Of a DNA stretch of 8,997 nt, positions 1,116 to 4,511 are shown piece by piece; the stretch's first letter is position 1; each line of letters opens with the position of its first letter. This DNA comes from Candidatus Desantisiibacteriota bacterium (GTDB taxonomy: Bacteria > JACRDZ01), in assembly GCA_016209155.1 (NCBI GenBank), contig JACQWU010000116.1, positions 1,933 to 10,929 of the forward strand, written 5' to 3'. Position numbers and translations under genes: made by a program. Under the pieces are notes generated by a model. It ran no database searches. It was given only the letters and a program-made list of their open reading frames with translations, and was not told the DNA's origin.

Positions 1116-1120
1116 CTCCT
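1116..1120 (-). promoter_or_regulatory. prfB Shine-Dalgarno site
   Basis: AGGAG on the minus strand lies 6 bases before ATG 1109. It fixes the true prfB start upstream of the frameshift site. It sits at the edge of the heptad-repeat element, inside a sequence shared with the permease Shine-Dalgarno region at 4302-4312. Confidence 0.85.
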
Positions 1121-1208
1121 ATGAAATTAGCAATGAGCAATTAGTGATGAGCAACGGGTTTAAATTTTTCAAACTCATCACTCATTGCTCATCACTCATT
1201 GCTCATTG
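1116..1208. repeat. Heptad-repeat inverted element, copy 1
   Basis: Three heptads at 1131-1151 (CAATGAG, CAATTAG, TGATGAG) face five heptads at 1174-1208 (CTCATCA, CTCATTG, CTCATCA, CTCATTG, CTCATTG). The 21-base left arm is complementary to 1188-1208 with one mismatch, so the transcript can form a long hairpin. Between them lies a core, 1156-1182 when the first right-hand heptad bases are included, that matches 4371-4397 of copy 2 at 23 of 27 bases. The left end, CTCCTATGAAA at 1116-1126, is identical to 4302-4312. The element fills the lnt-prfB spacer: the lnt stop codon lies inside it and the prfB ribosome binding site is at its other edge. It encodes no protein of its own that I can support. 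Confidence 0.85.
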
Positions 1209-2730
1209 CTTGTTTTACTACTAATAATAATATCACAATTACACATACTTGCGCAAAGACATCTCCATATATAGTATAGAAGGTATGTTTATTTCCTGAT
1301 AGAAATATTTTTTCCTGAATAGTCCCTCTTTTATATATTTCCAATTTTTTTAAAATTCGTCCGTAAGGGTCGATAATACAAGATACTCCTGTATTGGCGG
1401 CTCTTATAAGATAGACATGATTCTCCACTGCCCGAAATATGCTTATATTAGCATGTTGATGATGGGATGTAGAGCTTTTTGACCATGAATCATTTGTAAT
1501 GTTCACTAAAAATTCCGCACCTTTTTTTACGAATTTGCGCGTCAGATCTCCAAAAGTACCTTCAAAACATATAAGTACGGCAAAACTTGTACCGGATTTA
1601 CCTTTTCCCATTTTAAAGATAGTTATTCTTTTACCGGATTCAAAACCACCGCAATCCACACGGCTTTCCATCTGTTTAATAAATTCAAACCTGTTGCGTA
1701 GCGGAAATGCCTCCCCAAAAGGTACTAAGTGTATTTTGTCATATCTATCAATAATTAATCCTTTCGGGTCAAGCAGATATGCGCTATTGAAATCTTTTAC
1801 CTGATTTAAGATAATATCTGATGAAGGATTTCCAAGTAAAATAAAAGAATTATTATTATATGCAATTTCATTTATATCTGATTTTAAACTATTACTGGTG
1901 ACAATATTATTCAAAAGAACTGTCTCTGTCCAAACTATAAGATCAGCACCGGATAAAGAAGATGACAATTTTTTAAGATGACCAATCTTTTCATAATCAT
2001 AAGTTATATTTACATCGAAATTTCCCTGTATTATACCTGCTTCTAAAGTTTTAACATTTTTAGCTGTACTTATGGTTGATTCTTTCTTATTATCGGTCAT
2101 TATTTTTTCCGGTATAGAAAATTTTCCATAAATAAGTGCCAAAAGAATAAGCATCAAGCAGAGCCAAAGGGATTTTATTCTAGGTTTATCCAAAATTAAA
2201 AAATCCGCAAGATAAACATTTGTAAGGACTATAAGGAAAGTAATACCGGCTATTCCTGTTATATCAGCTATTTGAATTAAATAAATATTTTTGTACTGAG
2301 TATAAGCAAGGCTATTCCATGTAAGCCCCAAAAAGCCAAGTCCGCGAATATATTCTATAGATGTCCATAAAAGAGCCGCCAGCAAATGTCTTAAAAAAGG
2401 AAAATGCTTTTTCATTAAAACATAGAGCCATGCAAAAAGCCCAAAATATAAAGAAAAAACTAAAAGCATCCCAGGTAAAGCCAAAAAATGGAAAATTCTT
2501 ATCCAGAACATCGAAGCTAATGTAAAAATTATTCCCTGCATATATCCAAGCCAGAATCCCTTCCGGGGACTAGCTTTTTCAACAGCTATTATAAGAGGAA
2601 TCAAAGCTATCCATGATAGATTGGGAAAATTAAAATCAGGAAAACACAAAGCAAGCAATAATCCCGAGACCCCTGCCAAAATAAAAGGATTAGCTGAAAT
2701 AATCCAATTGCGTATTTTGCTGACCTGCAT
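1192..2730 (-). CDS. lnt: Apolipoprotein N-acyltransferase
   Basis: Lnt is an inner-membrane enzyme that transfers an acyl chain from phospholipid to the N-terminal cysteine of apolipoproteins, the last step of lipoprotein maturation in diderm bacteria. The 512 residues match the usual family length. Residues about 1-205 hold several hydrophobic membrane segments, and a nitrilase-type domain begins near EAGIIQGNFD (about 230). The catalytic triad known from E. coli can be placed: Glu269 in WTET (most homologues have Pro before this Glu), Lys332 in DKIHLVPFGE and Cys388 in LICFE. A last hydrophobic segment lies near 490-505. The start has AAGGAG at 2740-2735, 4 bases upstream. The last residues, AMSNE, and the TGA stop are encoded by the heptad element, so the original C-terminus may have been altered. 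prfB follows on the same strand. Confidence 0.96.
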   Translation of the reverse strand: MQVSKIRNWIISANPFILAGVSGLLLALCFPDFNFPNLSWIALIPLIIAVEKASPRKGFWLGYMQGIIFTLASMFWIRIFHFLALPGMLLVFSLYFGLFAWLYVLMKKHFPFLRHLLAALLWTSIEYIRGLGFLGLTWNSLAYTQYKNIYLIQIADITGIAGITFLIVLTNVYLADFLILDKPRIKSLWLCLMLILLALIYGKFSIPEKIMTDNKKESTISTAKNVKTLEAGIIQGNFDVNITYDYEKIGHLKKLSSSLSGADLIVWTETVLLNNIVTSNSLKSDINEIAYNNNSFILLGNPSSDIILNQVKDFNSAYLLDPKGLIIDRYDKIHLVPFGEAFPLRNRFEFIKQMESRVDCGGFESGKRITIFKMGKGKSGTSFAVLICFEGTFGDLTRKFVKKGAEFLVNITNDSWSKSSTSHHQHANISIFRAVENHVYLIRAANTGVSCIIDPYGRILKKLEIYKRGTIQEKIFLSGNKHTFYTIYGDVFAQVCVIVILLLVVKQAMSNE

Positions 2731-2782
2731 ATTGCTCCTTCTAAAATTTAATTTTACTCAGAAGATATAAACATTTGATAAA

Positions 2783-2806
2783 GGGCAGGTGCAAGACCTG
2801 CCCCTA
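2783..2806. repeat. GC-rich hairpin repeat at the DUF1848 stop
   Basis: GGGCAGGT (2783-2790) and ACCTGCCC (2796-2803) form a perfect 8-bp stem with a GCAAG loop, markedly GC-rich against the AT-rich surroundings. On the minus strand the element begins TAGGGGCAGGT, and its TAG is the stop codon of the DUF1848 gene. The U-tract after the stem on the minus strand is only CTTTATC, so it is at best a weak intrinsic terminator. It resembles dispersed REP-like palindromes common in bacterial genomes. Only one copy is present here. Confidence 0.6.
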
Positions 2807-3589
2807 CATTATAAATGGATTAGCATAACAATATAAACATCCGTTTTTACATTTTAGGCCATATGAACCTATATCAAAACTCTCTGTACATCCGCAAAAT
2901 TCCCTCTGCCCATGCGCCCGGAGAGTGGAACAAAATAATTTCTCTGGATGAAGCCTTGTAAAAAGTTGTCCATCAATACAGCTTGAGCCCGGGAATCCGC
3001 TGACTGCGCATATTAAAAGAGACATGTTCTTTTCCCCTAATTTTGTATTCATGTATTGATAATCTTCTTTCATTTCAGACTCACTGGGGACAATGAGCCT
3101 AAATCTTTTTTTTTCAAGATGATTTAGTACTTTTTTATAAGGGAATACCCAGCTTGTACGGCATGTTTTTATTCCAAGCCGGGATATCTTTTCCAATAAA
3201 TAATCAAAAAAAACAAAATTCGTAAAAAAAGTCCCGTTTTTAATTATTCTTATAATAGGGTCAAATCTCCATGTAATCCTTTCAGGTCCAGAAACAAAAT
3301 CAATTAGCGCAGGCAGAATAGAAAATATTTTATCAGATTCAGGTATCCCGTGTTCCAGTTCCGTACCGCCCATACCGGTAACTGTCAGATGAATATATAT
3401 CTGTCTATATTCCTTCAGTTTTTTATTTAGAACTTGATTGACCAAAATATTCGCAGGATTCTTAGTCCAGATTACAATGGTATGCACTGTTTCCGATGGA
3501 ATTTCATTTAATTTATCAATAAAAAATTCAGGGTAACAATCCACTATATCAGTGCGTCTGCTTGCAGATATTACAATTTTTTTTTGCAT
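2804..3589 (-). CDS. DUF1848 family protein, C-terminal cysteine cluster
   Basis: The 261-residue protein has the hallmarks of DUF1848: ISASRRTDI near residues 7-15, WTKNP at 41-45 and WRFDPI at 107-112. Its cysteine-rich C-terminus has CGC at 232-234, SFDIG at 237-241 and CKNGCLYCYA from 247. The function is unknown to me. The CX3CX2C pattern (Cys247, Cys251, Cys254) followed by Tyr-Ala is what radical SAM enzymes use to hold a 4Fe-4S cluster, and the DPI motif recalls spore-photoproduct-lyase-like proteins, so iron-sulfur binding is a reasonable inference. No Shine-Dalgarno site precedes ATG 3589; a -35/-10 pair ends only 8 bases upstream, which suggests a leaderless transcript. The stop codon lies in a GC-rich hairpin. 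The neighbours do not clarify its role. Confidence 0.88.
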   Translation of the reverse strand: MQKKIVISASRRTDIVDCYPEFFIDKLNEIPSETVHTIVIWTKNPANILVNQVLNKKLKEYRQIYIHLTVTGMGGTELEHGIPESDKIFSILPALIDFVSGPERITWRFDPIIRIIKNGTFFTNFVFFDYLLEKISRLGIKTCRTSWVFPYKKVLNHLEKKRFRLIVPSESEMKEDYQYMNTKLGEKNMSLLICAVSGFPGSSCIDGQLFTRLHPEKLFCSTLRAHGQREFCGCTESFDIGSYGLKCKNGCLYCYANPFIM

Positions 3590-3597
3590 AAAAAAAT

Positions 3598-3627
3598 ATA
3601 TTAATATGCTTCTATGATAAAAGTCAA
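3598..3627 (-). promoter_or_regulatory. Putative promoter of the DUF1848 gene
   Basis: TTGACT (3627-3622) and TAATAT (3603-3598) are separated by 18 bases on the minus strand. The -10 box ends 8 bases before ATG 3589, so transcription should start at or next to the start codon. This fits the missing ribosome binding site. The local AT-richness makes chance matches likely. Confidence 0.45.
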
Positions 3628-3633
3628 ATGATT

Positions 3634-4291
3634 TTATTCACTTTTATTAAAAGCAATCACTGCCGATGAAATCATTGTTATTGAAAAAATGATAAGGAAT
3701 AGAGCATTTATATAGATAGGATATTGAATTATGTGTTTTATGATTTCCGGTTTTAGGTTTGGAGCCATCATTAATTGTCTAAAAGCATCTACACTATAGG
3801 AAAGAGGATTTATTTTTGACAGTAAATTCATCCATAAAGGGATATCTTTTAAGGGGAAAAATAAATAAAAAAAGAAACGGGATAATATTAAAATGAATTG
3901 TAATACCTATAAAAGGGGCAATTAGAAGAAGAATCAGCGCCTGAAAAAAAGCAAGAGAAACTGACCCGAGTGCCTTACCCAATATAATTGCTGTACGAGA
4001 CACTGGAGCAACAAGTATTTCTTTTAAAAAACCGAATTCTCTGTCCCAAACAGTTGATACTGTGGAATAAAATGCCACTCCCATTATACTCATGGCAATA
4101 ATACCCGGATACATAAACTGAACAGAATCTACTCCCAGATGTCCACTGCTGAATGTCTTCTTTAGTCCCGAACCAAAAATCGTGAGAAACATCAAGGGCT
4201 GAAAAATTGTCAAAAAAATTCTCATCTTATCCCTAAAATAGCGGATCATTTCTCTCTCCCAGATCGTTGTCATTCCCCGCATAAAATACAT
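3634..4291 (-). pseudogene. ABC-2 type exporter permease, frameshifted and internally deleted
   Basis: This is the membrane partner of the DrrA-like ATPase encoded just upstream. The N-terminal part, from MYFMRGMTTIWERE, contains YPGIIAMSIMG and VWDREFGFLKEILVAPVSR, which are strongly conserved in DrrB/NodJ-type ABC-2 permeases. Near 3845-3870 the matching frame changes by +1: the C-terminal part continues as FFPLKDIPLWMNLLSKINP and then YSVDAFR. Family members have roughly 40-45 more residues between the hydrophobic stretch ending here at NIIPFLFLF and the FPL motif, including the FFLSGA-like segment. A single deletion whose length is not a multiple of three, within the T-rich stretch, would explain both defects. 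The combined product would be about 218 residues, against a usual 250-265. Start ATG 4291 is chosen because AGGAG lies 10 bases upstream; the longer open frame to 4396 only reads the repeat. Translational recoding is possible but would not restore the missing segment. Confidence 0.85.
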
Positions 4292-4301
4292 ATAAATGTT
4301 A

Positions 4302-4306
4302 CTCCT
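4302..4306 (-). promoter_or_regulatory. Permease Shine-Dalgarno site at repeat edge
   Basis: AGGAG on the minus strand lies 10 bases before ATG 4291. It is embedded in CTCCTATGAAA (plus strand), the same 11 bases that carry the prfB ribosome binding site at the edge of repeat copy 1. Confidence 0.7.
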
Positions 4307-4511
4307 ATGAAAAGAAGCAATGAGCAATGAGTGATGAGCAATGAGTGATGGGCAAGAAGCAATGAGCAATGAGTTAAAATATTTCAAACTTATCACTTTT
4401 CAGCTTTTTCGTCCCTCGTCCTAATGAGCGAAGCCAATGGTCATCCCTCATCCTTCTCATCACTCATCACTCATCACTCATCACTCATTGCTCATTACTC
4501 ATTGCTCATTT
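4302..4511. repeat. Heptad-repeat inverted element, copy 2
   Basis: The left half (about 4317-4374) has degenerate heptads of CAATGAG and TGATGAG, interrupted near 4350-4358. The right half (4456-4511) has eight uninterrupted heptads: four CTCATCA, then CTCATTG, CTCATTA, CTCATTG and CTCATTT. The shared core is at 4371-4397. Unlike copy 1, an extra stretch at about 4398-4455 with looser CCCTC/CATCC-type repeats separates the core from the right arm. The element fills the ATPase-permease spacer: its last base is also the edge of the ATPase TAA stop (4513-4511), and its other end carries the permease Shine-Dalgarno site. Open frames through it are artefacts of the repeat. Confidence 0.85.

Follow-up and report, generated by a model that had tools for sequence, protein, structure and literature searches.

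The two heptad-filled spacers in the window (the whole stretch of 8,997 nucleotides analysed here) are, at a probability of about 0.6, copies of a dispersed, probably mobile, non-autonomous DNA hairpin that is tolerated at gene ends. This reading is supported by the many copies, by kin across phyla, by their concentration at the 3′-ends of genes and by nesting. Its heptads (7-nt words, AGYRATG directed inwards) form two inverted arrays on either side of a genome-specific core. In the model that we propose, copies would arrive by insertion and would survive mainly where the end of one gene and the Shine-Dalgarno site of the next tolerate them.

Heptad hairpins in the window and in the host genome

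The window derives from a 3.08-Mb MAG, which is 79% complete. The genes on its minus strand are prfB, lnt, a DUF1848 gene and an ABC-2 permease together with its ATPase. Inverted heptad arrays flanking an AT-rich core make up the spacers at 1116-1215 and 4302-4511. In both elements, the arms are composed of AGYRATG heptads directed inwards and CTCATYR heptads directed outwards. The features are as follows.

1116..1126, minus strand: CTCCTATGAAA, tail and AGGAG ribosome-binding site of prfB; the AGGAG is judged to be host sequence
1127..1215, no strand: element 1, comprising heptad arm, AT-rich core and inverse heptad arm, including the lnt stop codon; hairpin z −10.9
1156..1182, no strand: core of element 1; identical at 23 of 27 positions to 4371-4397
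1192..1194, minus strand: lnt stop codon TGA within the heptad arm; translation ends VVKQAMSNE*
4302..4312, minus strand: CTCCTATGAAA beside the ABC-2 permease start, from sequence reading
4313..4510, no strand: element 2, comprising heptad arm, core, nested second repeat family and inverse arm; hairpin z −9.8
4371..4397, no strand: core of element 2, by comparison with 1156-1182
4405..4457, no strand: loop of element 2, occupied by a second heptad type (GGACGAR; inner TAATGAGCGAAGC..AATGG) that also has copies elsewhere in the genome
4511..4513, minus strand: ABC ATPase stop codon TAA abutting element 2, from translation

Direct reading of the letters confirmed the earlier claim that both spacers are inverted heptad arrays with a shared core and a shared end string: the cores differ at four positions, and CTCCTATGAAA adjoins AGGAG at both places. 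When folded in the gene sense, element 1 forms one hairpin (−53 kcal/mol) and element 2 one long hairpin (−96 kcal/mol); neither value was matched by any shuffled sequence. The claim that an upstream stop codon lies in or at each element also held. The TGA of lnt is inside the arm of element 1, which encodes the terminal lnt residues KQAMSNE, and the TAA of the ATPase directly abuts element 2. Element 2 is a composite, with GGACGAR heptads (about 4405-4457) occupying its loop. Between its last full heptad (4316) and AGGAG lies the tail CTTCTTTTCAT, and the same tail is present at other copies.

Two further observations concern the flanking genes. The prfB gene contains the conserved CTTTGAC programmed +1 frameshift site near position 1046, and its first ATG comes after the AGGAG at the end of element 1. 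The ABC-2 permease frame consists of two overlapping ORFs (3634-3831 and 3794-4288), split near 3794-3831 beside A-rich runs; this split is a frameshift or an assembly error.

The host genome contains 105 matches to AGCAATGAGCAATGAG with two or fewer mismatches, versus 2 for the reversed control, and the sharing between the two spacers is thus beyond chance, as the sequence-only reading had argued. These matches collapse to about 20 loci, which bears out its description of the element as dispersed. The whole-genome search for further copies that it had called for gave about 13 full hairpins (both arms, with an AT-rich loop of the type GAGTTnAAAAnATATTTTAACTC) and 6 partial copies. According to ORF calls, the copies lie mostly between co-oriented genes; examples are found at murF-mraY, at leuC-leuD and a little upstream of rpsM (names recognised from the translations). 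Two short arrays are found within large FG-GAP-type surface-protein frames, where variants leave the frame open. Copies of the GGACGAR family stand at about ten further sites in the genome. As a separate observation, this second dispersed family, (GGACGAR)n, was seen at loci L068, L069, L034, L072 and L074, in some cases with the inner word CCATTCGCTTCGCTCATTA. When three relatives from the same phylum were searched, lnt followed secA in the two with readable context, and prfB was not seen beside lnt.

The sequence-only reading had further held that the element carries a ribosome-binding site. Towards the downstream gene, roughly half of the host-genome copies continue with GCTTCTTTT and then a GGAG site; this tail is element-specific. 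TTCTTTT recurs beside heptads, upstream of AGGAG, and is rare before genes without the element. In contrast, GGAG is ordinary in this genome: a GGAG-type site is present upstream of 40 of 98 sampled host genes, and AGGAG upstream of 23 of them. With moderate confidence, we therefore regard TTCTTTT as part of the element, whereas the AGGAG probably belongs to the downstream host gene. The element-plus-AGGAG tail showed no genome-wide excess (57 matches versus 79 for the reversed control), although its best matches are at elements, and CTTCTTTTCATAGGAG was accordingly rejected as an independent genome-wide signal. Seven copies (W2, C115, C153, C205, C113, C158 and C178) do share GCTTYTTTT with GGAG a few bases on, as expected of a cassette that brings its own ribosome-binding site. 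However, copies without a GGAG site exist (C335 and C347), and 29 of 108 classified copies in other phyla (among the matches listed) lie in convergent spacers, where no start codon needs such a site. Together with the frequency of GGAG in the host, this makes such a cassette very unlikely. The idea is not needed, and the hairpin behaves like an inserted DNA repeat.

Hairpins at gene ends across phyla

The pattern of a hairpin with two heptads per arm was found in at least 114 stretches of GTDB genomes from at least 10 phyla. The number expected by chance in the whole collection is below about one, as estimated from base counts. The matches listed include Acidobacteriota, Chloroflexota, Cyanobacteria, Nitrospinota, Bacteroidota, Chlorobi, Gemmatimonadota, Actinomycetota, Planctomycetota, Armatimonadota, Betaproteobacteria, Firmicutes and a Peribacteria MAG. 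The same pattern is present in five viral contigs. Two contigs of the viral collection, L194 and L195, represent the same locus on opposite strands with unequal numbers of heptads. The spread is patchy: a three-heptad array occurs in 1 of the 60 nearest genomes available, and this single match outside the host's own genome is equalled by one control match in the same genome. The inner cores vary by genome. For example, the core in Spirosoma profusum is GTTTGCTGACGC...GCGTCAGCAAAC, and in Spirosoma there are core-plus-heptad families with different inner cores. A universal core was rejected because the copies from Nitrospinota, Spirosoma and Acidobacteriota carry other cores.

The placement of the cross-phylum copies was counted with the element masked and with mechanical ORF calls, so that some of the assigned neighbours will be wrong. 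Among the matches listed, the 108 classified copies comprise 73 in tandem, 29 in convergent and 6 in divergent spacers. Of the 131 gene ends that face a hairpin in these matches, 68 run into it, with their stop codon at its edge or inside it, and 32 end no more than 10 nt away. Of the run-in stops, 60% fall no more than 7 nt beyond the edge and about 30% in the second or third heptad. For comparison, 88.5% of random positions in the same loci are within genes.

Every AGYRATG heptad, as read from the sequence, holds TGA. Because seven is not a multiple of three, an incoming frame of any phase is closed within about 21 nt, and the hairpin is therefore mild at a gene end. The earlier statement that the element inserts without breaking translation fits these data, but largely because the TGA stops of the arm cycle through all three frames. 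Survival of copies at gene ends would be helped by the inward arms, which offer a TGA every 7 nt. These properties also carry a warning for annotation. The outward arms, which have no stop in any frame, lead to spurious N-terminal peptides such as SLLIAHCS, and the inward arms give false or new stop codons.

Insertion, alphabet switching and complementarity of the arms

A heptad hairpin is present inside a protein gene in a Nitrospinae MAG (L143, 2627-2703), where it lies in frame within a class II ribonucleotide reductase gene. The insert of 25 residues (75 nt, AGCAATGAG...GCTCGTTT) is the hairpin itself. Neither the eight homologues of this class II enzyme that were compared, all from viral contigs, nor the T. 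maritima structure 1xje contains it. At this surface position, two of the eight carry a few residues peculiar to them, so that the edges of the insert can be placed only to within a few codons. Since the hairpin sits in frame within an enzyme, this case suggests that the hairpins are insertions and not just expanded spacers, and it is the strongest evidence for insertion over mere growth in spacers.

The second case is the junction after mqo in Chryseobacterium. A copy is present there in C. indologenes and in a relative. The junction was found in the 118 Chryseobacterium genomes searched, and about 70 loci were read. In nearly all of these, a hairpin lies between the stop codon and the next gene. 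The heptad alphabet is ATGAG/GTAAT in 46 junctions, GTGAAT/GTCAAT in 15 and neither in 6; in other parts of these genomes, both alphabets are found again, in proportions that differ. A tree of the flanking genes requires 6 changes for the GTGAAT type, at least 4 of which are forced by well-supported branches. Thus, the alphabet switched at least four times at one junction while a hairpin stayed. Some GTGAAT junctions (L325-L331) are nested composites that retain the old right arm; within these composites, TTTTGCTTCGCAAGTGAA segments are also repeated and apparently represent a further nested repeat. In the most distant genome (the outgroup, L335), the junction is 46 nt long without a hairpin. 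The suggestion that the element is possibly mobile thus gains indirect support from the 75-nt reductase insert, from the switches of heptad type and from the hairpin-free outgroup.

The arms covary. Across 21 orthologues, changes on both sides are seen in 13 of 21 stem pairs, a value that none of 500 shuffles reached, and complementarity has therefore been maintained. If selection acted on the transcript, G-U mismatches should be tolerated and A-C mismatches should not. For the tandem cross-phylum copies, the ratio of G-U to A-C on the sense strand is 38:41 among the matches listed, and in Chryseobacterium it is 27:23, in rows that are not independent. In the host genome alone, G-U exceeds A-C (18:8, p 0.08). 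Because the large sets contain no G-U excess, RNA-level selection finds no support, and from the equality of G-U and A-C we infer that complementarity arises from a DNA-level process and not from an mRNA function. The arms may be kept complementary by template switching at the hairpin or by single-strand transposition.

Two other explanations for the hairpins have to be weighed against this reading. Simple sequence repeats might have grown in place by slippage and been made palindromic by template switching, so that nothing moves. In many bacteria, heptamers are reported to be commoner than any other long simple repeat (PMC4679880, PMC4692102), and array number varies both at one locus (L194 versus L195) and among Chryseobacterium orthologues, as such growth predicts. 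However, the same heptads, core and tail TTCTTTT stand at unrelated loci of one genome, nested composites occur, and one hairpin is inserted inside the ribonucleotide reductase gene; growth in place is therefore doubtful. Alternatively, the hairpins could be functional mRNA structures in operons, acting in stability, translation coupling or termination, and kept by selection. Strong folding, compensatory changes in the arms and the scarcity of copies in divergent spacers would all agree with this, as would the hairpin after mqo, which is retained in nearly all Chryseobacterium species and could also mean a function. This explanation is still less probable than growth in place, because selection on RNA should favour G-U, yet on the sense strand of the large sets the two kinds of mismatch are equally frequent, and because hairpins also occur in convergent spacers and within coding sequence. 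At some sites, the hairpins may nevertheless have an mRNA role. As to a known RNA family, Rfam gave sub-threshold matches to microRNA-hairpins and none above the gathering score.

The reading as an inserted DNA hairpin can be extended, as a tentative possibility only a little less doubtful than growth in place. The heptad hairpins could be a single, very widespread class of transposase-free bacterial DNA inserts, which dock at gene ends, have their alphabets replaced genome by genome at fixed docking sites and are copied by an undescribed replication-linked hairpin mechanism.

Comparison with known repeats

Earlier records of heptanucleotide repeats are piecemeal (cyanobacteria, Xanthomonas and Beggiatoaceae) and have no agreed origin. 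Among the open-access papers searched, we found no account of inverted arrays at gene ends across phyla, of alphabet switching at a protein-gene junction or of an in-frame insertion of a heptad hairpin. Gene-end arrays in many phyla, an insert in an enzyme and a change of alphabet make the origin of these repeats and the level of selection on them testable by strain comparison.

REP/REPIN hairpins go with RAYT transposases (PMC3116915). They resemble the heptad hairpins as short, palindromic, non-autonomous intergenic repeats in genome-specific families, but they do not have 7-nt periodicity. Of six Y1 transposase loci in the host genome, the five that were fetched had no heptad array, and mobilisation of the RAYT/IS200 type was rejected on the grounds that the fetched Y1 genes are without adjacent heptads. 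One Y1 (RAYT-like) transposase gene of the host (L196, 1651-2636) is flanked by GTTAGGCGGCGC/GTTAGGCAGCGCGGC (GTTAGGC) hairpins, which are probably its own REP family. As for MITE traits, inverted arms are present; in comparisons that lacked a close empty allele, neither a target-site duplication nor an empty site at strain level was seen.

The P6b stems of the Nostoc trnL(UAA) intron are built of heptads (Class II NNTGAGT, Class I TDNGATT), the distribution of which does not follow phylogeny (PMC4476775). In both, a stem is formed from copies of the same heptad, with both arms pairing into one stem, and two unrelated heptad alphabets occur at one site against phylogeny. The variants AATGAGT and GATGAGT fit NNTGAGT, and AATGAGC is also common. 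However, P6b is one intron locus in cyanobacteria; it is not found genome-wide at gene ends and is not known to be an insertion. The copies in the window lie between protein genes, not in a tRNA-Leu intron.

TAACTGA heptamers are found in intergenic regions of Beggiatoaceae, Cyanobacteria and Bacteroidetes (MacGregor 2015, PMC4679880). Like the repeats described here, they are dispersed and patchy across phyla, have stops in all three forward frames and in some cases overlap upstream stop codons. In contrast, they form direct arrays, almost never inverted, near starts and usually without a Shine-Dalgarno site, and the units in the window are AGYRATG in inverted arrays.

The STRR heptanucleotides of Calothrix and Nostoc and the G-rich heptamers of Xanthomonas (GGGAATC) and Nostoc (PMC4692102) are also intergenic 7-nt tandem repeats in many copies, some of them inverted. 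These have no shared core, the Xanthomonas case is G-rich, and their placement is described relative to starts. As in repeats of the STRR kind, the host genome has tandem 7-nt units, several per array, in many dispersed and mainly intergenic arrays. The heptad hairpin is kin to these known bacterial heptanucleotide repeats.
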